Assembly: GCA_022578605.1 (NCBI GenBank)
Contig: MU394070.1
Coordinates: forward strand, 496,001 to 560,000
Direction of reading: 5' to 3'
Length of the DNA stretch: 64,000 nucleotides
Source of the DNA: Camillea tinctor
Lineage: Eukaryota; Ascomycota; Sordariomycetes; Xylariales; Xylariaceae
Positions 3,598 through 62,230 of the stretch are shown here, one piece after another. Positions within the stretch are counted from its first letter, which is position 1; every line of letters starts with the position of its first letter. Below the pieces are notes generated by a model. The model was not told where the DNA came from. It saw nothing but the letters and a program-made list of their open reading frames with translations, and searched no databases. The translations under genes and the position numbers were made by a program.

Positions 3598-3637
3598 TAT
3601 TATTATTATTAGTGGTATTATAATAATAATAATAATT
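3598..3637. repeat. Inverted TAT/ATA triplet microsatellite
   Basis: A run of TAT triplets, a short spacer (AGTGG) and a run of ATA triplets form an imperfect palindrome that could extrude a hairpin. There is no link to a gene. Confidence 0.7.
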
Positions 3638-5826: not shown

Positions 5827-5828
<2 letters not shown>

Positions 5829-5875
<47 letters not shown>

Positions 5876-5888
5876 CGTGTGTGTGTGT
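5829..5888. repeat. Compound CA-TA-TG microsatellite
   Basis: About sixteen CA units are followed by about six TA units and then about six TG units. The CA and TG runs are complementary, so the block is a palindrome around the TA core. Confidence 0.85.
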
Positions 5889-6638
5889 TCCTTCTTTCAA
5901 GTAATGGTACATGGGAGTTGATGGCATTACTTCACTTTTTATTATGGTGATGAGCATCACGAATCAAGCCACTAATCAAGGCCATTACTACCTGACTCGA
6001 GAAATAGCACATGTCATTATTTACCTTGTATATACCAAGCACAAAACAGCACATGTGGGGGTTAGCTTGCGAACCCCCTTACCGGTACATGCAACCCGAA
6101 ACTAATAATAGCCCAAAGTAGCTTCTATTCATACTGTCTCGGTTTGTAAAACACCAGACTGAAAAGAGGCTCTCCAAAGGTATCGATAGTCAAGTATACG
6201 ATGCGCATTTATATATCGTACTGTTCCAATCTATTAGTATTACTGGATTGTGGTGTCTCCTGCCCTCGCGGTATTTAGAAGGTAAAGGTACGGACATGTC
6301 TCTCTCTCTGTGTGTGTATGTGTGTAACGAATGCCACTGAGGCCGGAAACCGCCTCATCGGCCGTTTTTAGGAAATTAGAGTCATCTGGCTAGCGCAGGT
6401 TGCTTTGATAAAGCATTGACAATTCCCAAGACATTGATGATAACAGTAACAGTATCAATCGTTCGCTATTAGGAGAACAGCTTAATATACATTTTAAGCT
6501 TATGTGCTGCGCCTAGATCCGACAACCTGGTTCGGTACCTGTGGGTAGCTCTATCCCCACTATTGGTTGGCGTTGGGCGGTCGCGCTTGTAATCACAATG
6601 CAGTCTAGCATTCCCTAAACATAGAGGAATATAGAAGG

Positions 6639-35433: not shown

Positions 35434-40700
<5,267 letters not shown>

Positions 40701-40940: not shown

Positions 40941-41025
40941 GGCTATATAGCGTAATAATTAAGCGTTTAATAAGTATTAATATAAAAACTAATATAATAA
41001 GTTTAAATTTTATTATAATTTTAAT

Positions 41026-41029
<4 letters not shown>
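40941..41029 (+). mobile_element. SINE head fragment, decayed
   Basis: The tRNA-like head can still be traced (GGCTATATAGCG, TTAAGCG, AATAAGTTTAAATTTTATT), but C and G positions of the A and B boxes are largely converted to T and A. It ends in a long TAA microsatellite. Confidence 0.6.

Positions 41030-41118
<89 letters not shown>
41030..41118. repeat. TAA trinucleotide repeat, about 29 units
   Basis: Nearly perfect TAA array joining a decayed SINE head to an inverted SINE-like tail. It probably expanded from the microsatellite tail of an element. Confidence 0.9.
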
Positions 41119-41134
41119 TATTTTATGTTTAAAA

Positions 41135-41298
41135 TAAATAATAAAATTAATGTAATTATTGTATATTAAAAAGTGTATAGCACTTTATATAAATAAAATA
41201 AAAAAATAGCAATATTTAATATGCAGCGCAGTTATATATTTAATGTTATACTTTTTTATTTTTTTACATATTTATAATACTATTTTATACTGCTATAT
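41135..41298 (-). repeat. Repeat Y, left copy
   Basis: About 160 bp that match positions 62625-62810 in inverted orientation. Both hold the words AATATTTAATAT and GTGCTATA and a TGTAATTATT block. The origin is unknown. Confidence 0.55.
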
Positions 41299-41299
41299 A

Positions 41300-42094
41300 A
41301 TAATGATAATAATAATAATAATAATAATATATTTTACGTCCAAGATAGGCAGAACTAACTAACTAACTAATTATTTACAACTTTAAGCCTATATAGACTA
41401 TAAAACAGCTAAAGTAAAAAGTTTCGTAAGCCTTTGTACTTGCGTATTAAAAATTTATATAGAAAATCCTCTACGCCGACTAGAAAGTTAGCACCTTACC
41501 GTTAACTAGCCTTTTTTAAGGCCTTGCCAATAAGTTAATCGGTAACAGCACCTTATAAAAAGCTACCTTATAAAAGGCTATTTTATAAAGAAATATTAGC
41601 GATAGTAAGGTTAATAATGGGAAATATATAAGTCGACAATAACTACCTTATTAAATAAGGAGGTGTTGGTAATAAGGGGGTATATAAGTCGGCAACAGCA
41701 CCTTATAAAAAGCTACTTTATAAAAGGCTACCTTGCAAAAAAAGGGGTATTAGCAATAATAAAGTTATTAACAATAAATATCTTATTAATAAAGCTATTA
41801 ATAATAAAGATTTTAATTATTAATATTTTTTATTTTATTAATATAGCTTTATTTGCAATGCTACTTTAAAATGTTAATAAGGTATATATATATGCTAATA
41901 ATTAGCTAGCAATAATGTAGGTACTTAGCGAAAAGTTTCGCTAATAATGCTTTTATTAGCTATAAAATAGCTAATAAAAAGTATTATGCTTTAAAAAAAA
42001 GGATAGTTAATTAAACCACAATGGGATTTAAACTTATTACATTAATATTTTACATTAATGTTTGCTAAACGCTTAACCACTACGCCATGTGGCC
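41300..42094 (-). mobile_element. SINE copy, nearly full length
   Basis: It runs from the ATT/ATC microsatellite tail (41300-41330) and the TTTTACGTCC tail motif to a tRNA-like head ending GGCC at 42091-42094. The head keeps AGTGGTTAAGCG on the minus strand, while the B box has decayed to GTTTAAATCC. The inner tandem repeats are reduced to two. Confidence 0.75.
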
Positions 42095-42592
42095 TATATA
42101 ATAATGATAATAATATATTTTACGTTTAAAGCAAGCAATGAAATTAATTAACTAATTAGCTATTTATAACTTTAAGCTTATATAAATTATAAAACGGTTA
42201 AAGTAAAAGGTTTATATTTTTATACTTACGTGTTAAAAATTTATATAAGAAATTTTTTGCGTTAACTTATTAAAAAATTAGCGCTTTATTGTTAATTAGC
42301 TTTTTTTTTTAAGGCTTTATTAATAAGTTAGTTAATAATAACACCTTATATAATAATGATAATAATGATATATTTTATGTTTAAAGCAAGCAATAAATTA
42401 ATTAATTAATTAGCTATTTATAACTTTAAGCTTATATAAATTATAAAACGGCTAAAATAAAAGGTTTATGCTTTTATACTTGCGTATTAAAAATTTATAT
42501 AAAAAATTTTTTGCGTTAATGCGCCTTACTATAACTAGCTTTTTTTAAAGTTTTATTAATAAAGGATTAATTAATAACAGCTACTTTATAAA
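42095..42592 (-). mobile_element. Two 3' fragments of SINE copies in tandem
   Basis: Tails begin at 42095 and 42351, each with the microsatellite, the TTTTA(C/T)GTTTAAAGC motif and the body up to the tandem-repeat zone. Neither has its head. They look broken by insertion of later copies. Confidence 0.65.
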
Positions 42593-42764
42593 AACCACAT
42601 GGCGCAGTGGTTAAGCGCCTGGCAAACATTAATGTAAAATACTAATATAATAGGTTTAAATCTTATTATAGTCCAACTAACCATCCTTTTTTTTAAGGTA
42701 TATATACTTTTTATTAGCCACATGGCGCAGTAATTAAGCGCTTAGCAAACATTAATGTAAAATA
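42593..42764 (+). mobile_element. Two SINE head fragments
   Basis: tRNA-like heads start at about 42593 (with A box TGGCGCAGTGG intact) and 42716. Each is cut short by the next head, so three heads lie within 175 bp. Confidence 0.7.
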
Positions 42765-43588
42765 GTCCATATAACGCAGTAGTTAAGCATTTAGCAAACA
42801 TTAATGTAAAATACTAATATAATAAGTTTAAATCCCATTGTAGTTTAATTAACCATCCTTTTTTTTTAAGCATAATACTTTTTATTAACTATTTTATAGC
42901 TAATAAAAGCATTATTGGCAAAACTTTTCGCTAAACACCTACATTATTACCGGCTAATTGCCAGCATATATATATACTTTACTAACATTTTAAAGTAGTA
43001 CTATAAATAAAACTACATTAACAAAATAAAAAATGCTAATAATTAAAATCTTTATTACTAATAGCTTTATTAATAAAGTATTTATTATTAATAACTTTAC
43101 TATTGCTAATACCCCTTTTTTTATAAAATAGCCTTTTATAAGGTAGCTTTTTACAAAGTGCTGTCGCCGACCCACATACCCCCCCATCGCCAACACCTCC
43201 CTATCCAATAAGGTAGCTGTTGTCGACCCACATACCCCCCATCGCCAACACCTCCCTCCAATAGGGTAGCTGTTGCCGACCTACACACCCATCGCTAACC
43301 TCACCATCGCTAACACCCCCCCATAAGGTAGCCTCCTATAGGGTGGCTTCTTATAGGGTGCTATCACCGACCAACCCACTGGCAAGGCCTTGGAGAAGGC
43401 TAGCCACGGTAAGGCGCCATTAGCGCGGAGGATTTCCTATGTAAATTTTCAATACGCAAGTACGGGGGCATAAGCCCCTTACTCCAGCCGTCTTATAGTC
43501 TATACAGGCTTAAGGTGTAACTAGATGCCATAGTAAATAGTTCAGCTATAAGCTCCTGCACTAAACGTTAAATATATTATCATTATTA
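42765..43588 (+). mobile_element. SINE copy, full length, mosaic composition
   Basis: From the head at 42765 to the AAACGTTAAATATATTATC tail at 43588. The three body hairpins are recognisable. The first 390 bp are AT-decayed, whereas 43155-43560 are GC-rich and keep intact words such as GTCGACCCACATACCCCCC and the tandem repeat. The tail decays again after 43560. Confidence 0.8.
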
Positions 43589-44055
43589 ACCTTACTTTTG
43601 CTAACACTTTTTTATTTAATAAAGCAACTATTATTAATTAATTAACCTTACTATTGCTAATACTTCCTTTTAATAAAATAGCTGTCGTTAACTTACATAC
43701 TTTTTTATTGCTAATACTTTTTTAAAACTAATAAAGTAGCTATTGCCGACCTACTTACTATTGCTAACCTTACTATCGCTAACACCTCCTTATAAGGTAG
43801 CCCTTTATAAAGTAGTTGTTATTAACTAACCTTACTAGTAAGGCTTTAAAGAAAGCTAGCTACGATAAAGCGCTATTAACACGAAAGATTTTTTATATAA
43901 TTTTTAACACGTAAGTACGAAAATATAAACCCCTTACTTTAGCTGTTTTATAGTTTATATAAGCTTAAAGTATAACTAAATACTATAATAAATAGTTTAG
44001 CTATAAGCTCTTGCATTAAACGTTAAATATATTATCATTATTATCATTAACATAT
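43589..44055 (+). mobile_element. SINE 3' portion
   Basis: Body with two tandem-repeat units, then the 3' tail with AAACGTTAAATATATTATC and the ATT/ATC microsatellite. No head. The preceding copy appears to have inserted into it. Confidence 0.7.
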
Positions 44056-45571
44056 AAAAAAAAATATAAAAAGATTTAGCTTAAATTAACTTTTAACGTA
44101 AATAAAAAAGGTTTAATAGCTAGCTATAGTTTATAATTTATTTTAAAGTTTATTTTAATGATTTTATTAATTATTTTATTAAAAATCGATAGTTTAGTTT
44201 TTAAAACTTTTAAAACTTGCAAAGCTTTTATAAAAAGTTTATAATTTTATTTTTAAACTTTATTTATTAAGTATGCTAGTATAATAAGTTAAGTGTTAAC
44301 TTTTAAGATTATTTTTAAAAGTAAAAATCTTTAAACTTTGTAGTTTATTAAAAAATTTAAAAATATAGCAAATTAGTACTTTATATGCTTAAAAAATAAA
44401 TAGTTATTTAATATAATAGCTATAAAGTAACTACAACAAGTTTTTTTGCTTTAAACCAACTATTTTTTTCGCGATTTATTAAAAGCTTGCTTTTTAATAC
44501 TAAATAGCTATAAAAATTATATATTAGTAAGTTATTTTTATTTTTATATTAATTAATTTTATTTTAATAATTTTGCAATTTTTTTTACGTATGTTATAAG
44601 AAGGGTATATTAACGCACTTTTTTTTAATTAAAGTTTATATTTACTTGTTTTCGCTACAATATTTACTTGTATTTTTTTTAGCCTATTGCTTTTACGGTT
44701 TTTAGCTTTTAAATAATAGTTTATTTAATTTTTTAAAAACGTATTATTATTGTTATTTTAATAAATTAACTTCTTAAACCGATAAATTGCTTATAAATAA
44801 AATTAACTTTATTAAGACTTATATTAAAGTAAAAAAAATAGCTTTTATTAAAAAAACTATTATAGTAAGGTTTAAAACTATTAAAAATTAGCTTATTAAC
44901 CGCAAAAAGGCTTTAAAACATTTAAAAATTTAAAATGTAATAAAAATAATAAATATAAAGCTATAGTTAAACCTTTAAAGTATAACCCTTTTTTTAATAT
45001 TAATAATTAGCTGCTAAATTAAAGATTTTAATAAATTTCGCACTTTTTAATCGAAAATTGCATTTAAATTAGCTATTAAAGCCTTTAAAAAAAAAAAACT
45101 AAGCGTTTTTTTTGCAAGAAAAAGTTAAAAAGTTTTAAGTTAAAAATAAAGCGCTAAGCAAAAAAAAAAGCGCAAAAAAGTCTTTAATTTTAATAAAACG
45201 TTTATAAAATGAATTTAAATTTAAGCTGCACATAAAGAAATTACTAAGGAACAGTTTGTAGCTTTTAAAACTAAAAACGGATTAAAATTAAGTAAAAAAT
45301 CAAGTAATAAATTAAATAAAAAATTTAGCGATAAAGAGCCAAATAAGCCTATAATATACTCGCTAATATACACGCGTTTTAGTCGCATTATTTAAGCTCT
45401 AATTAGGTACATAAATTAATTAAAAAAAGGCATTTTTATTATGTATTTATTTTATTTTTACTATTTTTTTAAGAATTTTTATGTATTATTAAAATTGTAG
45501 TGTTTTAGTGGTTTGTTATACATTTTGGTGTTCTTAATGTGGGGGTGTTTGTAAAGGTGTGGATGGATGGT
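44056..45571. other. Unassigned AT-rich sequence
   Basis: 1.5 kb of strongly AT-rich DNA between SINE copies with no frame and no match I can see elsewhere in the window. The last 70 bp (about 45510-45571) are less decayed and G-rich. It may be one more relic element. Confidence 0.4.
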
Positions 45572-46239
45572 AGTATTTAGTTACACCCTAAGCCTGTATA
45601 AATTATAAAACAGCTAAAGTAAAGGGCTTATATCCTCGTACCAACGTGTTAAAAATTTACATAAGAAATCCTCTGCGCTAATGCGCTTTACCGTTAACTA
45701 GCCTTTTTTAAGGCCTTGCCGAGGGTTAGTTAATCAGTAACAGCACCCTATAAAAAGCTACTTTATAAGAAGCTACCTTATAAGGAAGGAGGTATTAGCA
45801 ATAGTAAGGTTGTTGGCAACAGATACCTTATTAAGGTATTAGCAATAAGGGTATAAGTCGACGATAGCTACCTTATTAAAAAGAAGTGTTAGCAATAATA
45901 AGGTTATTAACAGTAAATACCTTATTAATAAAGCTATTGGCAGTAGAAATTTTAGTTGTTAACATTTTTATTTAACTAATGCTTTTAGCTACTTAACAGC
46001 TCCATTTGCAGTGCTATTTTAAAATGTTAGCGAGGTATATGTATATGCTAGCAATTAGCTAGCAATAATATGAGTAGTCGGCGAAAAGTTTTGCTAATAG
46101 TGCTTTATTAGCTAACAATAAAAAGTGTGTGTACCTTAAAAAAAAAGATGGTTAGTTAAACCACAATAAGATTTAAACCCATTATATTAATATTTTACAC
46201 TAATGTTTGCTAAGCGCTTAACTACTGCGCTATATGGCC
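45572..46239 (-). mobile_element. SINE copy lacking its extreme 3' tail
   Basis: Head at 46158-46239, hairpins, tandem repeats and the TTACACCCTAAGCCTGTAT tail region are present. The last 70 bp, including the microsatellite, are replaced by unrelated sequence at 45572. Confidence 0.75.
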
Positions 46240-49030
46240 TACTTTTTTACTTATAACTTTTTTTTAACTTTTATTAAAACTTTTATACTATATAAACTTA
46301 TAGCATTATAAGCTTTACTTTTTTCTTTTTGCTTTTAAATTAAGCAACTTTTTTTTTAAAAAAAAAAAATAAAAGCATTAACTTTTTTACTAAACATAAA
46401 AACGCTAATCTTTCTTTTTTTTATTTTAACTTTTTTTTTTAAGTTTAAAACAGTTAAAAAAACAACTTACCATTTTATTAACTACTTTTTTAAACTTAAA
46501 ATAAAAAATAGCTATTATTTTTTTTAGCTTTTTATAAAAACTAAAGCTAAAATAAAAAATAACTTTTTTATATTTAAAAAGCGCTAAATAGCGTAAATAA
46601 AAAACTATAAACTTATCTTGTTTAAATTTATAAAAAATTTAACAGTTTTTATTTTAACTTTTTTAAAAATAATTAAAAAAAAAAACAAAAATAAACGCTA
46701 AAGCTAAGTTTAATATACTTATTAACTTTTTATTTTATTTAAATATAGCATTTAAAAAATATATAAAAAAACTTTTAAACATCCACTCTCCTACTTATAA
46801 CTTTTTTTTAACTTTTACCAAGACTTTTATACCATATAAACTCATAGCATCGTAAGCCTTACTTTCCTTTCTTTGCTTTTAAATCAAGTAACTTCCCTTT
46901 TTTAAAAAAGGATAAAAATATTAGCTTTTTTACTAAACATAGAAACGCTAATCCCTTCTTTTTTTATTTTAACACCTTTTTTTTTAGGTTTAAAACAATT
47001 AAAAAAACAATTTGTTACTTTATTAACTACTTCTTTAAACTTAAAACAAAAGACAGCTATTGCCTTTTTTTAGCTTTTTATAAAAACTAAAGCTAAAATA
47101 AAAAATAACCTCTTTACATTTAAAAAGCGCTAAATAGCGCAAATAAAAAACTATAAACTTATTTTGTTTAAATTTATAAAAAATTTAATAGTTTTTATTT
47201 TAACTTTATTAAAAGCAATTAAAAAAAAAGCAAAAGTAAATGCTAAAGCTAAATTTAATATATTTACTAACTTTTTATTTTACTTAAATATAACACTTAA
47301 AAAGTATATAAAAAACTTTTAAAAAAAATAAGCTAATATAACCTTTTTTAAAATTTAAAACATCGTTATTAAACTAATAATTGCTACTATATTAAACTAA
47401 TTTTTAATTAATAGTAAAAAAAAAGCAAAGTATGTAATTAGTTTTAAAAAAGGTGCTTAGTTTGGTTTTTTTGCTTAATTTTACTTACTTTTTTAAAGTT
47501 AAGCGTTATAACTTTTACGCTTTTTAATAAAAAATAAAAAAAAAAGCTTTGCTTTTTTGTTTATATACAATAATAATAGTAATAATTAATGTTAATATTA
47601 ATTTTAATTTTAACTTTAACACTAATACTTAAAAATAAAGTATAATATAAAATAAAAGAAATAAACTTATAGTAATAAAAAATAATAATATATATTTTAA
47701 AAATAAAAAGCTTTTTATTAAGTTATTAGTTAAATATGCTTAAAATAATTTATGCTTAGTTAATTTTTAAGTAGTTTTAATTAATGTTATGTTTTTAAAC
47801 TATAATAATGTAGTAAACGCATAAAAAATAAAAATAAGCTAAGCTTTTTGCATTAAAAACGAAAAAGCTAAAAAAAACATTATATATAAAGCAATTAAAG
47901 CTAGTTTTTAGCTAAATAAAGCAATAAATTAAGCATTTTATATAGTTTTAAAGGTATTTAAAACCTTATAAATAAATTAAAGCTAAAAAGTAGTAAATTT
48001 TTTTTTATATTAAAAAATCGTTATATAAATTAATAAAAAATTAAAAATAGCTTATAAAACTAAATTAGTATTAAAAGTTTTTATTTAAAGCTAAATTATT
48101 GCGTTTAAACGATTAATAAAAGTAAGTTTTTACATTTTTAACTTTAAATTAACTTTTTTAATAAAAAAAAAGTTAAAATTTCGTAATATTAAAAGTATTT
48201 AAACTTTTATAACTTTAAAAACTATAATTATAACTTTTATTATTATAACTGCAAAAAAAAAATATAGTAACTGCTAACTTTTTATAAAATGCCTTAATTA
48301 TAAAAAACCGCATTTTTTTTAATAGTAGCTTATTTAGTTAAGCTAATTAAAAAAATAAAGCTATTATTTAATATATAAAGCAATAATTAGCATAAATTTA
48401 GCTATTTAAAAAACAATAATATTAAACTATAATAAAACCGGCTATTAATAGTAATAAAAAAAAAAAGCGTTATTTTTAAAGCTTGCAATATAAGCTTAGC
48501 TTTAAAAACGAAAATAAAAAAAACAATTGCTTTTACTTTTACTTTAAAAATAATAAAATTACAATTAATAATAGCGTTAAATTTAAAACTTATTTTTATA
48601 AAAAAACTAAAAAAGAAATAATATAATAATAATATATTAAATAATTTTTTTTTAAAAAAAAAGGCTAAAAAAAAATAAAAAACTTTATAAATAAAAAATA
48701 GTAAAACTAAAACTTTAAAAAGTTTAAAACTTTGTAAAGTTAAATAGCGTTTATAAAAAATAAAAAAATATAAAAGTAATAAACTTAAAATAATAATTAG
48801 CAATATTTTAATATGTTTTTAAGTTTACTTTACTTTAATATAGTTTTTATAAATATAGCCTTTTTTAAAATAATAAAACTGCTATAATAATTATTAAGCT
48901 TTAGCTTAACTAATTATAAATAGTAATAATAGCGCTATAAAAATTTAATAACTTAAATAAATGTTAAAAAAAATAGTTATGCTTTTTTTAAGCTAACGTT
49001 TAAAAAAAACTATAAACTTATAATATAGTA
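46240..49030 (-). repeat. Repeat family X, left copy, with a 540 bp duplication
   Basis: Read on the minus strand, it ends in GTTATAAGTA. Positions 46240-46782 and 46793-47335 are direct copies of each other, and both match 55270-55826 inverted. The shorter one looks like a 5'-truncated extra copy. Positions 47335-47800 match 54796-55270 inverted. The remainder to 49030 has no partner. It is too decayed to name the element class. Confidence 0.6.
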
Positions 49031-51374
49031 TTAATGATGATGATAATGATGATGATAATATATTTAACGTCCAGTATAAGAGCCGGAGTTAAACTAACTA
49101 CTATAGTACCTAGTTATACCTTAAGCCTATATAAACTATAAAACAGCAAAAATAGGTTTTTTATACTTGCGTGTTAAAATAAACAAAGAAGATCTTTTTA
49201 TTTTTCCTTTTTAAGGATTGCGGTTATACTTTTTATTTAAGCTGTGTTTTTTTGCAACGTTAGTTGCTTTATTGTGGCTAGCTTTTGTAGGCCTTGCTTA
49301 TTGGTTATACTATAGTTTTTGTTTTTTATACGGGTTAGTTTGCGCGAAGAAGGTTATAAAGTTAAGGTGGCCTTTATAGTTAAGTAAATAATGAGATTTA
49401 CGTTTTAAGCGGATTTTAAATTTTTATATTGTGTATTAAGTATGTTAGCATTTTATAATATAGTTAAGATTTTATTTTTAATTATATTAGCATATGCAAT
49501 AGTTAATTGCTTTAAAATAATTAAAGCGTTAGTAGTAGTTTATAAAGTTATTATAATTTGTGCATTTAGTAAAAAGTCGGTATAAAGTTTAATAATTAAA
49601 AGTAAGTTTTTTAAAAGTAAAAACTATAAGTAATTTTTATTTTTAATATAAATAAAAAGTATTTTATATTTATTACTTAATAAAAATGTTATATTTTTTA
49701 AGCTTATTAATGCGCTAAATATAAGTTAAAGTAAAAAGTTTAAAAAAGTTAAAAAAAAAGCAATTAAAATAATTAAAGCTTATGCTTTTTTTAACTTGTT
49801 AATTTGCTTTTTTATTTTTAAAAATATTTTTATATTTAAAAAACTATTATATAGTATAAATAAAAAAATAAATGTAGTTAATTATTTTTATAAAAGCAAC
49901 GAAATTAGTTTAAAAATTATCGAAAAAATGGCTAAAAAGCTTTTAAATTATTGCTATATTATTTAAATATAAATAAAAGCTAATAAAAATAAAAATAATA
50001 TTATGCTACTTTATTTTTGCTTATTTTATAGCTTTTTACGTAATAACTACTTTTGCATTAAAAACTTTTACTTAGCTAAAAAGTTTATAAAAAAAATATA
50101 GCTTTTTATTGCTTTAATATATTATAAACTTTTAATTAACGTAAATATTTAAAGTTTTAAATTTATTTAAATAAAAAATTAAGTTAAATAAAAAAAAATA
50201 TTTAAATTAGTATTTATATTTTATAACTTTTGCTATTTTTTTTTAAAACGAAAAAAAAAAGCTTTAAGTTAACTTTTATTAAAAAGGTTTAAGTATAAGT
50301 ATAAAAAAACTAATATATTTATTATTTATAATTTTATTTTTTTTAAATTATTTTTAAAGTTTATTTTTATTATTAAAAAGTATTAAAAATTTAATGTTTT
50401 AAATTAAATTAAATATTTATTGCATATTTGCTTAAAAAATACTTTTAATAATAAAATGTTTAATTTTTTATAAAGTGTTAGTATATTAATTATTTTTTAT
50501 ATTAATAGTATTATTTTAACTGCTACTTTAAAAAGTTTATTAAAAATAGCTAATTAAGCTTTATAATTAATATATATTACTTTGCTTTTTAAAGTGTTTT
50601 ATTAGTAATGTTTAAGCTATTATGTTTTTATTGCATATGTTGCTATTAATATTATGCATGCTTTAGTTATTTTAATTATTTTGTTTAATAAAGCGCTTTT
50701 AATTACTTTATTAAAATGTTTAATATAATTAATTACTTAAAATATTTTAGCTTTTTAAGTTGCAATATAATTTTTAAAACGTAATTTAAAATTAAAGTAT
50801 ATTTTAAACTACTTAATTGTTTTTTTTAAAAATTATATAACGAAGTTTTTAACTTATATTAGTTTTTTTTTTATACTACGTTTTTTATAAAAGTATTTAA
50901 GCTTATATTTAATAAGGTTAAAAAAAAAGTATTATGCTTTTTTTAGCTTAAAATGTTTTTAATGTTTTTTTTTTTTAACTATTTCGTAGTTTTTTAAGTT
51001 AATTTTTTTACTTTAAAAATAGTTATATTGTTTATATAACTAAACTTTATATTAAGTACGCTTTTTTTAAAAATTAGTTTAATATATAATATAAATAGTA
51101 TAAATAAAATTAAAAATTTTTATAATATTTTATAAAAAAGTAAGGTAAGTGTAATTATAATATTTTTTATATAAATTATTGCTTTTTTATTTATTATGTA
51201 AAATTTAATTTATTTAACTATATTGTTTAGTTATTTTTACTTTTGTAAGCGCAAAATAAGTTTTTTTTTAAAAACTGCATTAAATGCTTTAAATATGTTT
51301 ATTATTAAAAGCGATGCTTTTTTTTTTATGTTAAGCGCTTTTTTTATATTATATATAATATAAGCTATAAAGTT
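49031..51374 (-). mobile_element. Long LINE-like element, copy L1
   Basis: The 3' end at 49031 has the ATC/ATT microsatellite and the AACGTCCAG tail motif of the SINE, and similarity to the SINE continues for about 150-300 bp (AACACGCAAGTATAAA, GGCTTAAG, GCAAGGCCT). Beyond that the sequence is unique to this family and matches 52705-54795 inverted. Coding potential is destroyed by AT decay, so reverse transcriptase cannot be shown. The LINE assignment rests on the shared tail. Confidence 0.55.
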
Positions 51375-52189
51375 AATAATAATAATAATAATAATAATAT
51401 ATTTAACGTTTAGTGCGGGAGTTTATAGCTAAACTATTTATTATGGCATTTAGTTACACTTTAAGCTTATATAAACTATAAAACGGTTAAAGTAAAGGGC
51501 TTATGCTTTTATACTTGCGTGTTGAAAATTTACATAAGAAATTTTTTACGTTAACAAGTTAGCGCTTTACTGTAGTTAGCTTTTTTTAAAGCTTTATTAA
51601 TAGGTTAGTCGGTAACAGCTACTTTATAAGGGGCTACTTTATAAAAAGTGTTAGCAATAATAAAGTTAGCAATGAGTATATAAGTTAGCAACAGCTACCT
51701 TATTAAAAGAAAGTGTTAGCAATAATAAAGTTAGTTAACAATAATTACTTTATTAGTTTTAAAAAAGTATTAGCAATAAAAAAGTATATAAGTTAACAAT
51801 AGCACTTTGTAAAAAGCTACTTTATAAAAAATTACTTTGTAAAAAAAGTATTAGCAATAGTAAGGTTATTAGCAATAAATACTTTATTAATAAAGCTATT
51901 AACAATAGAAATTTTAGTTACTATTATTTTTATTTAATTAATGCTTTATTTGCAGTGTTATTTTAAAATATTAGCAAGGTATGTATATATATTAGCAATT
52001 AGCTAATAATAATATAAGTACTTAGCAAAAAGTTTTACTAATAATGCTTTATTAGCTATAAAATAGCTAATAAAAAGTATTGTGCTTTAAAAAAAAAATA
52101 GTTAATTAAACCATAATAAGATTTAAACTTATTACATTAGTATTTTACATTAATGTTTGCTAGGCGCTTAACCACTGCGCTATGTGGCC
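51375..52189 (-). mobile_element. SINE copy, full length, decayed
   Basis: Microsatellite tail at 51375, TTTAACGTTTAGTGCGGGAG motif, three to four tandem-repeat units, hairpins, and head ending GGCC at 52186-52189. It lies between the two inverted long elements L1 and L2. Confidence 0.8.
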
Positions 52190-54795
52190 AAAAGTATTTA
52201 TATTAAAAATAAATAAAAAAAAATATTATTAATTTATAATAGCTGCTTATTTTTATAAACGTAAACTTTTTTATGCTTAAAAAAAACTGCAAAAAAAATA
52301 AAAACATTTTTTTATAAAATTAACACGTTTTATTAAATAAAGCAAAATTAACATGCATTTATATAATTAATATTTTTTTAAAAAAAAATAAGCTTATAGC
52401 TTTTTTATTGTAAAAAGCATAATTAATTATAAGCTTAATAATAAAAATGCTTTATAAAATATGCTTAAAATATAAATATTATTTAATGCATTTTTAAACA
52501 ATTAAAGTAATAATGCTATTAAAAGTTAAAAAAAATTTTTTATTATAATTAAGTTTTAAAAGCTAATATTTTTATTTTTTTGCTTTAAAAAAATTAAAAC
52601 GTTTAGTAGTTAAATATATAATAAACTTTGCAATAAAAAAAAGCATTATTTATTATTAACAATTTAAAGCTTTTTTTAAAAAAGCAGCTATTAATTTTGT
52701 AACTTATATTATATATAATGTAAAAAAAGCGCTTAATAAAAAAAAAGCATTACTTTTAATAATAAACATATTTAAAGTATTTAATATAATTTTTAAAAAA
52801 AAACTTATTTTGCGCTTATAAAAGTAAAAATAGTTAAATAATTTAATTAAGTAAATTAAATTTTATATAATAAATAAAAAAGTAGCAATTTATATAAAAA
52901 ACGTTATAATTGCATTTATTTTACTTTTTTATAAAGTATTGCAAAAGTTTTTAATTTTATTTATATTATTTATATTATATATTAAATTAGTTTTTAAAAA
53001 AAGCAGTTAAATAGCTTAAAATATACTTTAATTTTAAGTTACGTTTTAAAAATTACATTGCAATTTAAAAAGTTAAAGCATTTTAAATAATTAATTATAT
53101 TAAACACTTTAATAAAGTAATTAAAAATACTTTATTAAATAAAATAATTAAAGTAGTTAAAATATATATAATATTAATAATAATATATATAATAAAAACA
53201 TAATAATTTAAACACTATTAATAAAATATTTTTAAAAATAAAATAATGCGCATTAACTATAAAGCTTAATTAATTATTTTTAATAAACTTTTTAAAATAG
53301 CAATTAAAATAATATTATTAATATAAAAAATAATTAATATATTAATACTTTATAAAAAATTAAATATTTTACTATTAAAAATACTTTTTAAATAAATATA
53401 TAATAAGTATTTAGTTTAATTTAAAGCATTAAACTTTTAATATTTTTTAATAATAAAAATAAATTTTAAAAATAACTTAAAAAAATAAAATTATAAATAA
53501 TAAATACGTTAGTTTTTTCGTACTTATGCTTAAACCTTTTTAATAAACGCTAACTTAATGCTTTTTTTTATTTTGTAAAAAAAGCAATAAAAATTGCAAA
53601 ATATAAATATTAATTAAAGTATTTTTTTATTTAACTTAATTTTTTATTTAAATAAATTTAAAAATTTAAATATTTATATTAATTAAAAGTTTATAGCATA
53701 TTAAAGCAAAAAAAAGTTATATTTTTTTTATAAATTTTTTAATTAAGTAAAAAATTTTAATATAAAAATAATTACTACATAAAAAGCTATAAAATAAGCA
53801 AAAATAAAATAACATAATATAACTTTTATTTTTACTAGCTTTTATTTATATTTAAATAATATAGCAATAATTTAAAAACTTTTTAACTATTTTTTTAATA
53901 ATTTTTAAGTTAATTTTATTGCTTTTATAAAAATAATTAATTATATTTACTTTTTTATTTATACTATATAATAATTTCTTAAATATAAAAACATTTTTAA
54001 AAACGAAAAAGTAAATTAATAAGTAAAAAAAAGCATTAGCTTTAATTGCTTTAACTGCTTTTTTTTTAACTTTTTTAAACTTTTTACTTTAATATTTATT
54101 TAATGTGTTAATAAACTTAAAAAACACAATATGTTTATTAAGTAATAAATATAAAATATTTTTTATTTATATAAAAAATAAAAGTTATTTGCAATCTTTA
54201 CTTTTAAAAAGCTTATATTTAATTATTAAACTTTATATTAACTTTTAATTAAATAAATAAGCTATAATAACTTTATAAATTACTATTAACGCTTTAATTA
54301 TTTTAAAGCAATAAATTGCTATATATGTTAGTATAGCTAAAAGCAAAACTTTAACTATATTATAAAATATTAACATACTTAACACATAATATAAAAGCTT
54401 AAAATTTGCTTAAAACGTAAATTTCGTTATTTAGTTAGCTATAAAGGCTATATTAACTTTATAACCTTTTTTGCGCAGGCTAGCCCGTATAAAAAATAAA
54501 GACTATAAATGCAACTAATAAGCAAGGCCTATAAAGGTTAGTTACAGTAAGGCAACTAACGTTATAGAAAAACACGGCTTAAATAAAAAGCACAACTATA
54601 GTCCTTACAAAAGAAAAGTAAAAAGATTTCTTTTATTTATTTTAACACGTAAGTATAAAAGTCCTCCTTACTTTTGCCGTTTTATAGTTTATATAGGCTT
54701 AAAGTGTAACTAAATACCGTATTATAATAGATAGTTTAGCTCTAGCTCTTGCATTAAACGTTAAATATATCATTATTATTATCATCATTATCATT
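52190..54795 (+). mobile_element. Long LINE-like element, copy L2
   Basis: Inverted partner of L1, about 2.6 kb, ending in AAACGTTAAATATATC and the ATT/ATC microsatellite. It extends about 500 bp further 5' than L1. The final 300 bp keep more GC and align with the SINE 3' region. No intact frame remains. Confidence 0.55.
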
Positions 54796-55826
54796 TTTTA
54801 TATATTTGCTATATTGCTATAGTTTAAAAAATAGCGTTAATAAATGCTATTTAAAAATTAGTTAAGCGCAGGTTGTTTTAAGCGTATTTAACTAATAGCT
54901 TAATAAAAAGCTTTTTATTTTTAAGGTATAAGTTATTGTTTTTTATTGCTATAAGCTTGTTTTTTTTTTACTTTATACTATATTTTATTTTTAAGTATTA
55001 AGGTTAAAGTTAAGGTTAGTGTTAGCGTTAATTACTATTGCTATTATTACATATAAGTAAAAAAGTAAAGCTTTTTTTTTTATTTTTTATTAAAAGGCGC
55101 TAAAGTTATAATGCTTAACTTTAAAAAAGTAAGTAAAGCTAAATAAAAAAAAGTTAAATTAAGTACTTTTTTTAAGGCTAATTATGTATTTTGCTTTTTT
55201 TTTGCTATTAGTTAAAAATTAATTTAGCATAATAGCGACTATTAATTTAACGATTATGTTTTAAATTTAAAAAAAAGCTACGTTAGCTTATTTTTTTAAG
55301 AGTTTTTTATATACTTTTTAAGTGCTATGTTTAAGTAAGATAAAAAGTTAGTAAATACGTTAAACTTAGCTTTAGCATTTGCTTTTGTTTTTTTTTTAAC
55401 TGCTTTTAAAGAAGTTAAAATAAAAACCGTTAAATTTTTTATAAATTTAAACAAAATAAGTTTATAGTTTTTTATTTGTGCTATTTAGCGCTTTTTAAAT
55501 GTAAAAAGGTTATTTTTTATTTTAGCTTTAATTTTTGTAAAAAGCTAAAAAAAATAGTAGCTATTTTTTATTTTAAGTTTAAAAAAGTAGTTAATAAAGT
55601 AGCAAGTTGTTTTTTTAACTGTTTTAAACTTAAAGAAAAAAAAGTTAAAATAAAAAAAAAAAAACTAGCGTTTTTATATTTAGTAAAAGAACTAATGCTT
55701 TTATCCTTTTTTAAAGAAAAAAAGTTGCTTAATTTAAAAGCAAAAGAAAAAAAGTGAAGTTTATAATGCCGTAAGTTTATATAGTGTAAAAGTCTTAGCA
55801 AAGGTTAAGAAAAAGTTGTAAGTAAA
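54796..55826 (+). repeat. Repeat family X, right copy
   Basis: About 1 kb matching 46793-47800 in inverted orientation, with more GC retained. It ends in AAGTTGTAAGTA next to a SINE tail. An open frame at 55476-55757 is Lys/Phe-rich and compositional. Confidence 0.6.
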
Positions 55827-56023
55827 ATAATGATAATAATGATAATAATATATTTAACGTTTAATGCGGGAGCTTATAGCTAAACTATTTATTATAGCAT
55901 TTAGTTATACCTTAAGCTTATATAAATTATAAGACGGCTAAAGTAAGGGGCTTATACTTTCGTACTTGCGTGTTAAAAATTTATATAAGAAATTTTTTAC
56001 GCTAATAAGTTAGCGCTTTATTG
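55827..56023 (-). mobile_element. SINE 3' fragment
   Basis: Microsatellite, TTTAACGTTTAATGCGGGAG and about 150 bp of the tail region, then interrupted by the GC-rich copy that follows. Confidence 0.75.
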
Positions 56024-56835
56024 TGATGATGATGATGATGATATATTTAACGTCCAGTGCGGGAGCTTATAGCTGAACTATCTACTATGGCATCTAGTTA
56101 CACCCTAAGCCTGTATAGACTATGGAACGGCTGGAGTAAGGGGCTTATGCCCCCGTACCTGCGTGTTAAAAATTACATAAGAAATCCTCCGCGCTAGTAG
56201 CTAGCGCCTTACCGTTGGCTAGCCTTCTCCAAGGCCTTGCCAGTGGGTTGGTCGGTAACAGCAAGGGGTGTCAGCGATAGTGGGGTTGGCGATGGGTGTG
56301 TGGGTCGGCAACAGCTACCCTATTGGAGGGAGGTGTTAGCGATGGGGGGTATGTGGGTCGACGACAGCTACCCTATTGGATAGGGAGGTGTTGGCGATAG
56401 GGGGGTATGTGGGTCGGCAACAGCACCCTGTAAAAAGCCACCCTATAGGAGGCTACCCTGTAGGGAGGGGGGTGTTAGCGATGGTGGGGTTGTTGGCGAT
56501 AGTTACCCTGTTAGTGGGGCTGTCGGCAGTGGATATTTCGGTCGCTAACATTGCCATTTAGCTAATGCTTTTTAGCTGCTTAGCAGCTCTATTTGCAGTG
56601 CTACTCTGGGATGTTGGCGGGGTATGTGTGTATGCCGGCAATTAGCCGGCAATGATGTGGGTGCTCGGCGAAAAGTTTCGCCAATAGTGCTTTTATTGGC
56701 TATAAAATAGCCAATAAAAAGTGTGTGTGCCCTGGAAAAAAGGATGGTTAGTTGGACCACAATGGGATTTAAACCCATTACATTAGTATTCCACACTAAT
56801 GTCTGCCAGGCGCTTAACCACTGCGCCATGTGGAC
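56024..56835 (-). mobile_element. SINE copy, full length, least decayed
   Basis: The best reference copy at 812 bp. Read on the minus strand: head from 56835 with A box TGGCGCAGTGG, D stem GCGC/GCGC, and B box GGTTTAAATCC; hairpin 1 (56691-56719, TTTTATTGGCTAT with its complement); hairpin 2 (56667-56682, GGCGAAA/TTTCGCC); hairpin 3 (56633-56651, TGCCGGC/GCCGGCA); tandem repeats of about 55 bp (56270-56420); tail TAGTTACACCCTAAGCCTG; and an end of ATC units. The high GC content shows it escaped most RIP and is young. The short open frames in it are not genes. Confidence 0.85.
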
Positions 56836-57581
56836 AAAAAAAAATAGTTAGTTAAATTACAATGAAATTTAAACCTATTATATTAATATTTTACACTAAT
56901 GTTTGCCAAGTGCTTAACCACTGCGCTATGTGGCCTTAAATAAAGAAGTGTTAACAATAAAAAGTATATAAGTTAACAATAGCTACTTTATTAAATAAAA
57001 AAGTATTAGCAATAAAAAATATGTAAGTTAACAATAGTACCTTATAAAAAGCTACTTTATAAAAAACTACTTTATAAAAAAAAATATTAACAATAATAAA
57101 GCTAATTATTAATAATAGTTACTTTATTAATAAAGCTATTAGCAATAAATATTTTAATTATTAATATTACTATTTAGCTAATACTTAACTACTTAATAGC
57201 TTTATTTGCAATATTACTTTAAAATGTTAACAAAGTAGGTATATATGCTAGCAATTAGCCGGCAATAATATAGGTGCTTAGCGAAAAGTTTCGCCGATAA
57301 TGTTTTTATTAGCTATAAAATAGCCAATAAAAAGTGTATGTGCCTTGAAAAAAAGGATGGTTAGTTAGACCACAATGAAATTCGAACCTATTACATTAGT
57401 ATTCCACACTAATGTTTGCCAAGCGCTTAACCACTGCGCCATGTGGCCTAAAATAGCTAATAAAAAGTATGTATGCTTTAAAAAAAAAGATAATTAATTA
57501 AACTACAATGAAATTCAAACCTATTACATTAATATTTTATACTAATGTCTGCTAAGCGCTTAACCACTGCGCTATATGGCT
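56836..57581 (-). mobile_element. Nest of SINE 5' parts with three heads
   Basis: tRNA-like heads at about 56855-56935, 57368-57448 and 57500-57581, all on the minus strand. The middle one has a 430 bp body with hairpins and tandem repeats but no tail. The outer ones are short. The middle head keeps GGTTCGAA in the B box. The arrangement fits repeated insertion of the family into itself. Confidence 0.7.
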
Positions 57582-57951
57582 AATAAATTATTTAAAACAA
57601 CAATTAAAATAATGCTATTAATGTAAAAAATAATTAATATTTTAACTTTTTATAAAAAGTTAAATATTTTTTTATTAAAAGTATTAAATTTTTAATACTT
57701 ATTAATAATAAAAGTAAATTTTAAAAGTAATTTAAAAAAAAATAAAGCTATAAATAATAAATATAATAGTTTTTTATATTTATATTTAATTTTTTTAATA
57801 AATGCTAGTTTAAAGCTTTTTTTTTATTTTATAAAAAAAATAGTAAAAATTATTAAATATAAAAACTAATTTAAATATTTTTTAATTAACTTAGTTTTTT
57901 ACTTAAATAAATTTAAAATATAAAATATTTACGTTAATTAAAAGTTTATAA

Positions 57952-59565
57952 CAGGGTTGTGATAAAAAACTTTAGTTTTTAGTTTTTTTTTAGTTACTAA
58001 CTAATTTAGTTAGTTTTAACTACAGGACCCACTAATTACAGTAGTTTTAGTCAGCCTATTAGCTAACTTATGTAGTTTTTAGTTAAAGTGCTAATTAACT
58101 CATGTAGTTTTAGTTAAGGCTTTAACTAACTACAAACTATATGAGTTAGTCGAGTTAGTAACTATAAAAAACTAAAAACTACAAAAATAGCCCCATTTTT
58201 CTTAAAAATAATAGTTTAATACTATATTTAATATAATAAATTAAATTTAGATTTTATATAACCTATTTTATAAAAAGTATTATTTTATATTAAATATATA
58301 GTAAGTTATTTAATTTTTTAATTTAAAGTATATTAAAAATTATAATTATATATAAAAAACATTTAAATTTATTAACGTTATAACTTTTTTAATTTAATTA
58401 ATAAAATTATATTTTTTATAAAATAATTTATATAAATAATAATAATGATAATAATATATTTTACGTCCAGGGCGGGCGATGAAACTAATTAACTAATTAG
58501 CTATTTATAACCTTAAGCTTATATAAACTATAGAACGACTAAAGTAAAAAGCTTATACTTTTATACTTGCGTGTTAAAATTTACATAGAAAATCTTTTGC
58601 GCTATTAGCGCTTTACTATTAATTAGCTTTTTTTAAAGCCTTACTAATAAGTTAATTAATAATAGCACTTTATAAAAAGCCACCTTATAAGAGGCTATTT
58701 TATAAAAGGTATTAGCAATAGTAAAGTTAGCGATAAAAAGTATATAAGTTAATAATAGCTACCCTATTAAATAAAAAAGTATTAGCGATAAGAAGTATAT
58801 AAGTTAACAACAGCTACTTTATTAAATAAAGAAGTATTGGCAATAAGAAATATGTAAGTTAACGATAGCTACTTTATTAAATAAAAAAGTGTTAGCGATA
58901 GGAAATATATAGGTTAACAATAATTACTTTATTAAAAAAAAGTATTAGCGATAATAAGGTTAATTAGTAATAACTACTTTATAAAAGGCTACTTTATAAA
59001 AGAAAATATTAACAATAGTGAGGTTATTAGCAATAAATACTTTATTAATAAAGCTATTAATAGTAAATATTTTATTTGCTAATATTTTTATTTTTGCTAA
59101 TATAGCTTTATTTGCAATGCTACTTTAAAATGTTAATAAAGTATGTATATATGCTGGCAATTAGCCGGCAATAATATAGGTACTTGGCAAAAAGTTTTGC
59201 CAATAATGCTTTTATTAACTATAAACAGCTAATAAAAAGTGTGTATGCTTTAAAAAAAAATAGTTAATTAAACTACAATAGGATTTAAACCTATTATATT
59301 AATATTTTATACTAATGTTTGCCAAGCGCTTAACTACTACGCTATGTGGCCATATAATTTATATAAAGCTTTAATTTAATTTATTAAATTAAATATAGTA
59401 TTAAATTATTGTTTTTAAGAAAAATAGGGCTATTTTTATAGTTTTTAGTTTTTTTATAATTACTAACTTAAATTAATGTAGTTAGTTTTAATTAGGCTAT
59501 TAACTAACTTTAGTTAGTGGGGCTAGTTAATTTAGTAACTAATTAATAACTAAATCACAACCCTG
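57952..59565. mobile_element. hAT-like fold-back (MITE-type) element
   Basis: Starts CAGGGTTGTGAT and ends ATCACAACCCTG, a perfect 12 bp terminal inverted repeat. It is flanked by the identical 8 bp GTTTATAA (57944-57951 and 59566-59573); an 8 bp duplication is diagnostic of the hAT superfamily. Without the SINE nested at 58437-59353 the element is about 680 bp. Segments near 58160-58250 and 59375-59465 are a further inverted pair, so it can fold back on itself. The left part carries repeated GTAGTTTTAGTTA-type words. It has no transposase frame, so it is non-autonomous. Confidence 0.85.
58437..59353 (-). mobile_element. SINE copy inside the hAT-like element
   Basis: About 917 bp, flanked by a perfect 14 bp duplication ATAATTTATATAAA (58423-58436 and 59354-59367). 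It holds four to five tandem-repeat units, the most in the window, and a head ending at about 59351. The duplication fixes both ends of the element and shows it is a retroposed unit. Confidence 0.85.
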
Positions 59566-59660
59566 GTTTATAATATATTAAAATAATAAAAAGCTATATT
59601 TTTTTATTTATATAATTTAATAGTTTTTTAAATAAAAAAATATTTTTTAAATTTTTTAAA

Positions 59661-60498
59661 AGCCACATAACACAGTAATTAAGCGCTTAATAAACATTAA
59701 TATAAAATACTAATATAATAAGTTTAAATCTTATTATAGTTTAACTAACTATTCCTTTTTTTAAAGCATACATACTTTTTATTAGCTATTTATAGCTAAT
59801 AAAAGCATTATTAGCAAAACTTTTCGCTAAGCACTTATATTATTATTAGCTAATTGCTAATATACATACCTTTCTCGCTAATATCCTAAAATAACACTGC
59901 AAATAAACTAAAAAAGCATTAACTAAATAAAAATGCTAACAACTAAAACATTTATTACTAATAACCTTATTAACAAAGTAATTGTTGCTAATAACCTTAC
60001 TATTGCTAACACTTCTCTTTTTATAAAGTAACTTCTTATAAAATAGCTTTTTACAAGGTACTGTTACTAACTTACATACTTCTTTATTATTAACACTTCT
60101 TTATTTAATAAAGTAACTGTCGTTAACCTACACTTCCCTATCGCCAACACCTTTCTTTAATAAAGTAGCTATTGTCGACCTATACACCTATTGCTAACCT
60201 TATTATCGCTAACACCTCCTTATAAAGTAGCCCCTTATAAAGTAGCTTTTTACAAAGTGCTATTACTAACCAACCAACCTTTAATAAAGCTTTAAAAAAA
60301 GCTAACTAATAGTAAAGCGCATTAACGCAAAAAATTTCCTATATAAATTTTTAACACGCTAATACAAAAGCATAAACCCCTTACTCCAGCCGTCCTATAA
60401 TCTATACAGGCTTAAAATATAACTAAATACCATAATAAATAATTCAACTATAAGCTCCTGCACTAAACGTTAAATATATCATTATTATCATCATCATT
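59661..60498 (+). mobile_element. SINE copy inside L3
   Basis: About 838 bp, flanked by a 12 bp duplication AAATTTTTTAAA (59649-59660 and 60499-60510). Head GCCACATAACACAGTAATTAAG, hairpins, tandem repeats, and tail AAACGTTAAATATATC with ATT/ATC units. Confidence 0.8.
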
Positions 60499-61222
60499 AA
60501 ATTTTTTAAATTTTTTATTTATATTTAATGCATTAATAAATTAAAAAATATAACATTTTTATTAAGTAATAAATATAAAACATTTTTTATTTATATAAAA
60601 AGTAAAAATTGTTTATAATTTTAACTTTTAAAAAGTTTATATTTAATTATTAAATTTTATATTAGCTTTTTATTAAATAAATAAGCTATAGCAACTTTAA
60701 AAATTATTATTAACGCTTTAATTATTTTAAAGCCATTAATTGCTATATATGTTAATATAATTAAAAGTAAAACTTTAATTATATTATTAAATGTTAATAT
60801 ATTTAATAAACGATATAAAAACTTAAAGTTTGCTTAAAATATAAAGCTTAACATTTTATTAATTATAAAAGCTATATTAACTTTGCAACTTTTTTTTACA
60901 TAAGTTAACTTATATAAAAAACAAAAAGTATAGTGTAACTTTTTAGCAAAGCTTATAAAAACTAGCTATAATAAAGCAATTAACGTTATAAAAAATTATA
61001 GCTTAAATAAACTAAATAAAAAATAATGCTTTATAGTTTTTTTAAAAAAAATATAAAAAGCAAAAAAAATTTCTTTATTTTTTTAATACGTAAGTATAAA
61101 AAGCAACTTCCTTATTTTAGCCGTTTTATAGTTTATATAAGCTTAAAGTGTAATTAAATACTTATTAGTAAATAGTTTAATTTTAAGCTTTTGCATTAAA
61201 TGTTGAATATATTATTATTATT

Positions 61223-61966
61223 GATGATGATGATGATGATGATATATTTAATGTTTAGTGCGGGAGCTTATAGCTGAACTATTTACTATGGCATTTAGTT
61301 ATACCTTGAGCCTGTATAGACTATGAGACGGCTGGAGTAAGGGGCTTTAAAGGCCCCCGTATTAGCGTGTTGAAAATTACATAAGAAATCTTCCGTGCTA
61401 GTAATGGCGCCTTACCGTGGCTAGCCTTTTTTAAGGCCTTGCTAGTGGGTTGGTCGGTGACAGCTACCCTATAGGGGGCTACCTTGTAGGGGGTGTTAGC
61501 GATAGTGGGGTTGGCGATGGTAGGTGGGTCGACGACAGCTACCCTATTGGATAGGGAGGTGTTGGCGATGGTGGGGTTGGTCGGTGACAGCCACCCTATA
61601 GGGGGCTACCCTGTGGGGGGTGTCAGCAATAGTGGGGTTGGTTGTTGGCGACGGTTACCCTGTTAGTGGGGCTATTGGCAGTGGATGTTTTGGTTGCTGG
61701 CATTTCCATTTAGCTAATGCTCCATTTACAGTGCTACTTTAAGATGTTGGCGAGGTAGGTGTGTATGCCGGCAATTAGCCGGCAATGATGTGGGTACTTG
61801 GCGAAAAGTTTCGCCGATAGTGCTTTATTGGCTATAAAATAGCCAATAAAAAGTGTTATGCCTTAGAAAAAGGGATGGTTAGTTAGACCACAATGAGATT
61901 CGAACCCATTACATTAGTATTCCACACTAATGTCTGCTAGGCGCTTAACCACTGCGCCATGTAGCC
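61223..61966 (-). mobile_element. SINE copy, full length, GC-rich, best tRNA-like head
   Basis: 744 bp in the minus orientation. The head (5' end at 61966) folds well as a tRNA acceptor (7 bp with G-U pairs), D arm (GCGC/GCGC) and T arm (5 bp with loop TTCGAAT). It has A box TGGCGCAGTGG and B box GGTTCGAATCT. The anticodon region is not standard: an 8 bp stem with loop GTGGAAT. The element sits in an ATT microsatellite (ATATTATTATTATT on both sides), which is probably the tail of L3. Confidence 0.85.
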
Positions 61967-62230
61967 ATATTATTATTATTATTATTATTGCTATTTAGTT
62001 AAAATTTAGCTATTTAATAGCTTTATTTACAGTGCTACTTTAAAATATTAATAAAGTAGGTGTATATGTTAGTAATTAGTTAGTAATAAGCTTTATTAGC
62101 TATAAATAGCTAATAAAAAGTATATATGCCTTAAAAAAATAGTTAATAAAACCATAATAAAATTTAAACTTATTATATTAATATTTTACATTAATGTTTA
62201 CTAAGCGCTTAACCACTACGCTATATAGCC
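61967..62230 (-). mobile_element. SINE 5' portion after an ATT repeat
   Basis: An ATT microsatellite, then a decayed SINE body and head (about 62150-62230) in which the boxes read GTTTAAATTT and AGTGGTTAAGCG-like. The tandem-repeat zone and tail are missing. Confidence 0.65.

Follow-up and report, generated by a model that had tools for sequence, protein, structure and literature searches.

The window analysed here is a 64,000-nucleotide stretch of Camillea tinctor contig MU394070.1, and its AT-rich part at 40941-62230 is crowded with copies of a repeat that begins like a transfer RNA (tRNA). We call this repeat SINE1 (SINE, short interspersed nuclear element) and reserve SINE2 for a second, shorter SINE. 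Very probably, SINE1 is a non-autonomous retroposon that was copied by a long interspersed nuclear element (LINE) with the same tail. Because it starts like a tRNA and ends like this LINE, SINE1 probably hitch-hikes on the LINE copying machinery. A first-pass annotation of the window had recognized a SINE, and that identity is upheld by the tRNA-like head, repeat tail, target duplications and lack of coding content described below; the LINE that shares the tail within the same window was overlooked.

SINE1 copies, heads and target duplications

Iterating a profile search through 215 kb of sequence led to a 745-position SINE1 model. In the window this model yields 21 chained matches: the head is present in 14, the tail in 14 and both in seven (Table 1). 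The first-pass counts were about 15 heads and 14 tails, although three of the tails (49038-49307, 54503-54789 and 60936-61222) are the ends of LINEs and not of SINEs. The seven full copies measure 746-917 bp, in line with the 744-917 bp initially given, and the 21 pieces cover 9555 of the 21290 bases of the reported range. Over all loci examined we obtained 111 chained pieces, of which 35 are full (692-928 bp), 57 have a head and 82 have a tail, the last figure counting LINE ends too. A single copy used as query against the whole genome (44.7 Mb in 154 contigs, with the window on contig C20) finds at least 91 matches, partial pieces included, spread over 18 contigs.

The two head boxes that had been proposed fared differently. 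The A-box pattern TGGCGCAGTGG has 21 matches in the window with up to two mismatches, compared to 6.4 expected, and none of 100 shuffles scores that high; 12 of the 21 fall at 42-62.3 kb and the remainder are background-like. The B box GGTTCGAATC as written occurs once intact and once with one base off, which 55 of 100 shuffles equal, and most copies carry a C-to-T or G-to-A variant of it. This last count is what one would expect if the whole region were a chance heap of tRNA pseudogenes and microsatellites. That explanation can hardly be right, however, and is already refuted by the copy and tail counts: the 35 full copies fit the profile from head to tail, the genome matches number 91, and the tail-end pattern, when one mismatch is allowed, occurs 34 times, compared to none for the reversed pattern. 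In the window, the tail word AACGTTAAATATATC has 23 matches with up to three mismatches against 6.4 expected, a number that none of 100 shuffles reaches.

The tRNA check suggested for the heads gave matches of Rfam RF00005 to five window heads at E <= 1 (25.9-35.8 bits), three of them above the gathering score, and the acceptor and T arms fit the tRNA model. The SINE1 head carries the word GGCCACATGGCGC. At six sister loci, which hold the related elements described below, four heads have an Rfam tRNA match of 30.5-45.1 bits. In the printed alignments of two of these, L107 and L109, the stretch from the D to the T arm does not align as an anticodon arm; in L112 it does, with an insertion ahead of it. 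By eye, the SINE1 head has a longer hairpin in the anticodon region (CATTAGT...ACTAATG). The halves of the SINE1 head score 25 against tRNA genes, with a shuffled maximum of 9, but Leu, Arg(acg) and Ser come out almost level; the SINE2 head fits Ile best. No one tRNA gene emerges as the source among the 39 compared, out of 59 tRNA matches. L104, initially the top match among tRNA loci, turned out to be a SINE2 head and was excluded from the comparison.

SINE1 length varies along with internal repeats, including a unit of about 55 bp whose number differs between copies, and the GC content of full copies ranges from 21% to 53%. The claimed lack of coding capacity holds: in the eight least mutated copies, the longest open reading frame starting with ATG encodes 50-143 amino acids and falls inside the shuffled range in six, the other two lying slightly above the 95th percentile. 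In the predicted fold of one copy (C21:2835-3728, in L014), three strong consecutive body hairpins lie at about positions 115-205. The first body hairpin has 12 pairs in the folds of both SINE1 and L112, and three of these pairs differ between the two, each on both sides, as judged by eye from only two sequences.

Target duplications were scored in 33 of the 35 full copies, those with near-complete model ends and enough flank. The median score is 14, compared to 4 in a control of 1056 mismatched flank pairs, and 20 of the 33 copies reach or exceed the control 95th percentile, in keeping with the target duplications seen at first pass; insertion into microsatellites inflates the score of a few copies (41308-42095, 61222-61967 and C74:570). 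In the window, copy 58436-59352 is flanked by the duplication TTTATATAAATTAT. The duplication AATAATAATAATAT of copy 61222-61967 is ambiguous because this copy was inserted in an AAT microsatellite, and that of copy 41308-42095 because it is microsatellite-like. Copies 56024-56836 and 51378-52189 show no duplication above the control, and one was looked for without success at 42765-43588. Elsewhere, two SINE1 copies of unequal length (C64:232902 and C153:8828), both in LINE sequence, have the identical duplication TTTAAGCTAACGTT, possibly an insertion hot spot.

A tail shared by SINE1, its sister elements and a LINE

The same tail terminates SINE1, SINE2, the SINE1 relative L112 and the LINE. 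The last 175 or so nucleotides of the LINE are 71-83% identical to SINE tails in stretches of 95-190 nt, and 27 tails from SINE1 (types a and b), L112, SINE2 and the LINE align collinearly. These were picked from 83 for lower mutation and for variety, with L109 added by its own coordinates, so that its row begins 9 nt late and extends 9 nt into the repeat. Their consensus fold consists of two hairpins, in which 92.7% of 398 cells are paired, compared to 33-68.2% when the pairing is slid. Double-change cells number 31 (16.1 +/- 2.9 in shuffles) and the covariation score is 0.417 (0.332 +/- 0.016), values that none of 500 shuffles reaches, while neither the number of pairs that show a double change (9, with 7.3 in shuffles; equalled or exceeded in 72 of 500) nor that of further pair types (185 of 500) is outstanding. 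For six tails folded singly, z-scores range from -1.5 to -2.4. At one pair, 19 tails have G-C and the five SINE2 tails have C-G, a swap that C-to-T mutation cannot produce.

The LINE copies align to a 6.24-kb element (about 6244 positions) with a sharp 5' boundary. It qualifies as a LINE, that is, a non-long-terminal-repeat (non-LTR) retrotransposon, by a constant 3' end, 5' truncation at varying points, target duplications and a chain of reverse-transcriptase motifs. Among the 24 segments that reach the 3' end, two are full, seven are cut at the edge of the examined DNA and 15 start inside the element (positions 3898-6001), some of these inner starts stemming from later insertions. The two full copies, on C45 and C64, are each interrupted by SINE1 and have 13-14-bp duplications, TAAGCTATAAAGT and TA[C/T]TAGCAAAGCTT. 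Conversely, a 5'-truncated LINE copy lies within a SINE2 copy on C147, with TTTTTCCTAACATT and TTTTTCCTAGCATT at its sides (14 bp, one base different). With LINE inside SINE2 and SINE1 inside LINE, both must have moved in overlapping periods.

Along much of the LINE, every third position is enriched in G, the mark of an old coding sequence; this periodicity shifts with alignment gaps and differs among copies. A motif scan that accepted any codon reachable by C-to-T or G-to-A change picks up five ordered reverse-transcriptase motifs, at 1433, 1538, 1643, 1814 and 1906 of LINE part B. The chain scores 53.6, whereas the reverse strand gives 30.1 and 400 rolled-track nulls have a mean of 30.3 (standard deviation 4.3, maximum 45.1). 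Each in its own track, the LDxxGAFD-like and PQGSP-like motifs rank first, and the QFG-like and FADD-like motifs tie for first. In the window, LINE part 49038-51381 covers the last three of the five motif places. An early low-stringency blastn search with the LINE returned AT-rich noise at about 60% identity and was discarded.

A genome search for RVT_1 gave five matches (L052, L053, L054, one partial and one mutated on C28), and none of the five coincides with a LINE copy found. With long open pol-like frames (reverse transcriptase, RNase H and integrase) in DNA of 45-47% GC, L052 (C26) and L053 (C14) look like Ty3-type LTR elements. L054 (C78:3564-7301) has a 661-amino-acid open frame at 59% GC with RVT_1 as its sole Pfam match, and might be a single-copy host reverse-transcriptase gene. 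The match L056 (C28:3710-4069) is heavily mutated, with 11 stops and 10% GC, and has no match to the 6.24-kb LINE at the cut used.

SINE2 is present in seven copies and is about 360-410 bp long; the measured elements at L105, L107, L108 and L109 are about 364-413 bp, with ends uncertain by a few bases. Flanking GC is 41-47% at these four loci and 34% at L110, and the copies on C140 and C147 lie on contigs rich in SINE1 and LINE copies. Over about 80 nt, the SINE2 head shares 77-80% identity with SINE1 heads; the SINE2 body has no match to the SINE1 body in the same comparison. Target duplications are seen in five of the seven copies, the perfect ones being 14-15 bp: L105 ATGACAAGAAATCTA, L107 TTCTACTATGATTT (14 nt) and L109 TAGAGAATACACCC. 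That of L108, CATTCTCTTCTTTTG, has one change, and that of L110, TGCTACTTTAGC, was found by eye. The copy on C140 shows no clear duplication, and the 3' flank of that on C147 lies outside the DNA examined for duplications. The 524-bp L112 is 70% identical to a window copy of SINE1 along the alignment, with 79% in the head and 75% in the tail; it is flanked by CGGTCCAGTGGG/CGGCCCAGTGGG in DNA of 46% GC.

A proposed route of copying and its rivals

We hypothesize that the tRNA-like head, acting as an internal promoter, would direct transcription of SINE1 by RNA polymerase III (pol III) into an RNA without protein-coding content. The 3' end of about 175 nt would form two hairpins ahead of ACGTTAAATATATC(ATC/ATT)n, and SINE1, which would have taken this end from the LINE, could then be recognized by the LINE reverse transcriptase. 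The LINE machinery would cut the target, prime copying on the tail and leave duplications of about 12-15 bp. To judge from the shared ends, the 6.24-kb LINE is the likely helper, and it would also have moved SINE2, with its related head and other body. Finally, C-to-T mutation resembling repeat-induced point mutation (RIP) would have ruined most SINE copies and all listed LINE copies, leaving an AT-rich graveyard between ordinary genes.

The mutation bias behind this last step is observed directly. RIP-like dinucleotide ratios occur in all 50 loci fetched by SINE and LINE queries (L002-L051), with TpA/ApT of 1.21-1.63 and (CpA+TpG)/(ApC+GpT) of 0.39-0.93. Of 4491 departures from the guessed older base in the counted columns of full SINE1 copies, 4068 are C-to-T or G-to-A changes, a share inflated because the guessing rule favours C and G. 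RIP would be the probable mutator.

Several observations weigh against the route as a whole or in part. ARAGORN calls no tRNA in the window, and two of the six sister loci (L108 and L110) have no tRNA match at E <= 0.1. For insertion, 13 of the 33 copies have no duplication above the control 95th percentile and only six reach the 99th. C-to-T changes are only mildly biased to CpA (CpA 37%, CpG 33%, CpT 27%, CpC 21%), a preference weaker than in textbook RIP. For the LINE, the YRPI-like motif is only tied for third in its own track, and the motif patterns and spacing limits were taken from general knowledge. No reverse transcriptase was found in the LINE read-through frames by Pfam, which gave only weak unrelated matches below the cut-offs, or, for six read-throughs, by profile search of PDB and 5.8 billion proteins. 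A gene so mutated is expected to be invisible to such searches, but this is still a weakness. Lastly, T5 runs near +97 and +117 are conserved in little mutated SINE1 copies and could be a pol III stop.

These T runs speak for a different source of the transcript, in which pol II or a neighbouring promoter transcribes SINE1, the head is a relic or an RNA-folding domain, and the LINE copies the RNA through its tail. In the 45 nt past the head, all 14 of the least mutated copies listed carry two stretches of five or more T, one of the two being T6 or T7 in three copies, which would favour early pol III termination, and full units are long at 692-928 bp. However, T5 is a borderline pol III terminator in fungi. 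The tRNA-like heads are retained at four of six sister loci, and SINE2 keeps its head although the body differs, a pattern to be expected of a required head. We therefore regard a pol II origin as unlikely, though it deserves to be weighed, and favour transcription from the head, as the tRNA-like arms suggest.

The state of the LINE likewise invites the reverse history, in which the 6.24-kb element acquired its tail from a SINE, or both are moved by a different LINE. Every LINE copy listed has a GC content of 7-28%, with no protein-family match and a reverse transcriptase visible through motifs only. Yet one tail ends the LINE, SINE1, SINE2 and L112, the duplications of the two full LINE copies match those of the SINEs in size, and the truncated LINE inside SINE2 has its own near-perfect duplication. 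We find this history improbable and retain the 6.24-kb LINE as the candidate helper.

The island and relation to known elements

The SINE1 copies of the window lie in an AT-rich island flanked by ordinary sequence: GC is 47% over 1-40800, 21% over 40941-62980 and again 47% beyond 63000. The closest checked gene leftward is the pentafunctional AROM gene (35532-40247). Another gene (29393-31447) encodes a protein 80% identical to one from Biscogniauxia marginata, and the other named protein matches for the window, among 120 listed, are mostly to genera that we place in Xylariales from general knowledge; these matches put the host probably near Biscogniauxia within that order. One miniature inverted-repeat transposable element (MITE; 57952-59565), which we take to be hAT-like, has the terminal inverted repeat CAGGGTTGTGAT...ATCACAACCCTG with GTTTATAA flanking both sides, as seen by eye. 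It is inserted in a LINE fragment and itself carries SINE1 copy 58436-59352.

Table 1. SINE1 and LINE features of the window (model positions refer to the 745-position SINE1 profile, LINE positions to the element of about 6244)
Feature	Coordinates	Strand	Remarks
Full SINE1, 788 bp	41308..42095	-	profile 608 bits
Two SINE1 3' parts (42098-42350, 42351-42616)	42098..42616	-	profile
Two head-only SINE1 pieces (42595-42719, 42717-42764)	42595..42764	+	profile
Full SINE1, 824 bp	42765..43588	+	profile 720 bits
SINE1 3' part, model 331-741	43588..44050	+	profile
SINE1 without last tail part, model 2-677	45571..46240	-	Rfam tRNA 27.3 bits, below gathering score
LINE 5' fragment, positions 4-541	46239..46779	+	alignment
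LINE 5' part, positions 1-2311	46780..49034	+	start coincides with shared 5' boundary
LINE 3' part, positions 3898-6243	49038..51381	-	shared tail at 49038-49307
Full SINE1, 812 bp, lying in LINE sequence	51378..52189	-	profile 625 bits
LINE fragment, positions 3401-4226	52191..53010	+	covers first four of five reverse-transcriptase motif places
LINE 3' part, positions 4433-6242	52973..54789	+	shared tail at 54503-54789
LINE 5' part, positions 12-1055	54787..55825	-	alignment
SINE1 3' part, model 552-742	55829..56025	-	profile
Full SINE1, 813 bp, 50% GC	56024..56836	-	profile 783 bits; Rfam tRNA 32.9 bits
Head-only SINE1 piece	56836..56936	-	profile
SINE1 5' part, model 2-465	56946..57449	-	Rfam tRNA 25.9 bits, below gathering score
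Head-only SINE1 piece	57449..57580	-	profile
Full SINE1, 917 bp, within hAT-like MITE	58436..59352	-	profile 662 bits; Rfam tRNA 30.1 bits
Full SINE1, 838 bp	59661..60498	+	profile 596 bits; duplication ATTTTTTAAATTTTTTA
LINE 3' end, positions 5526-6234	60499..61222	+	abuts tail of SINE1 61222-61967
Full SINE1, 746 bp, 47% GC, little mutated	61222..61967	-	profile 772 bits; head at high coordinate; Rfam tRNA 35.8 bits at 61885-61966
SINE1 5' part, model 3-273	61986..62230	-	profile

Judged from literature text and not against Repbase or Dfam, SINE1 appears to be a new family, though its kind is known. Five literal head and tail strings do not occur in the literature searched, and the matches listed in those searches include no print record of the family. 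The kind itself is in print, since the available text of PMC5063351 reports both long fungal SINEs and the sharing of a LINE tail. Among the SINEs it lists are Egr1 (700 bp) and egh1/EGH24 (900 bp) of Erysiphe graminis, mgsr1 (800 bp) of Magnaporthe grisea and nrs1 (500 bp) of Nectria, which by these listed lengths are similar to SINE1. The first-pass remark that SINE1 is longer than typical SINEs is thus right as to length but less striking among fungi.

The closest parallel in the same text is AfuSINE2-1a of Aspergillus fumigatus (370 bp, four copies), which ends in (ACT)n and whose 3' part resembles the 3' untranslated region of the Tad-clade LINE I-1_AF, a LINE on which its authors propose that it depends (PMC5063351). 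SINE1 is like it in being fungal and tRNA-related, with a LINE-like 3' part and a trinucleotide-repeat end. In sequence, the body and tail of AfuSINE2-1a score 20-21 against SINE1, SINE2 and L112, within the shuffled range, and matches slightly above shuffles occur only at the B box.

As far as the available text of PMC5063351 goes, the recorded fungal SINEs are few, and one of them is discussed together with a helper LINE. Here a single genome holds a likely helper LINE, several SINEs sharing its tail, natural tail variants with covariation, and insertions in both directions, so that tail recognition by a fungal LINE becomes directly testable. The helper appears dead by RIP-like mutation, and some low-copy SINEs in ordinary DNA are little mutated.

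Outside fungi, the eel elements UnaL2 and UnaSINE form a LINE/SINE pair of the stringent type. In such pairs, the two partners have a common 3' end with a stem-loop used in recognition, according to the portions available of PMC5135761 and PMC3747384. Recognition was tested in those systems, whereas for SINE1 and its LINE covariation of the tail argues for it.

The SVA elements of apes combine a SINE-like part, a variable tandem repeat and a retroelement-related 3' end. More speculatively, and with the odds rather against us, one LINE may have fed a modular radiation of retroposons built from related tRNA-like heads with the unusual anticodon-region hairpin, exchangeable bodies and one two-hairpin tail. 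SINE1 would then be an SVA-like composite of head, hairpin block, variable 55-bp tandem repeats and LINE tail, with its body kept as RNA structure. Homology with SVA is not expected: the two are alike in module order, but the SINE1 head is tRNA-like and its tail is common with a fungal LINE.

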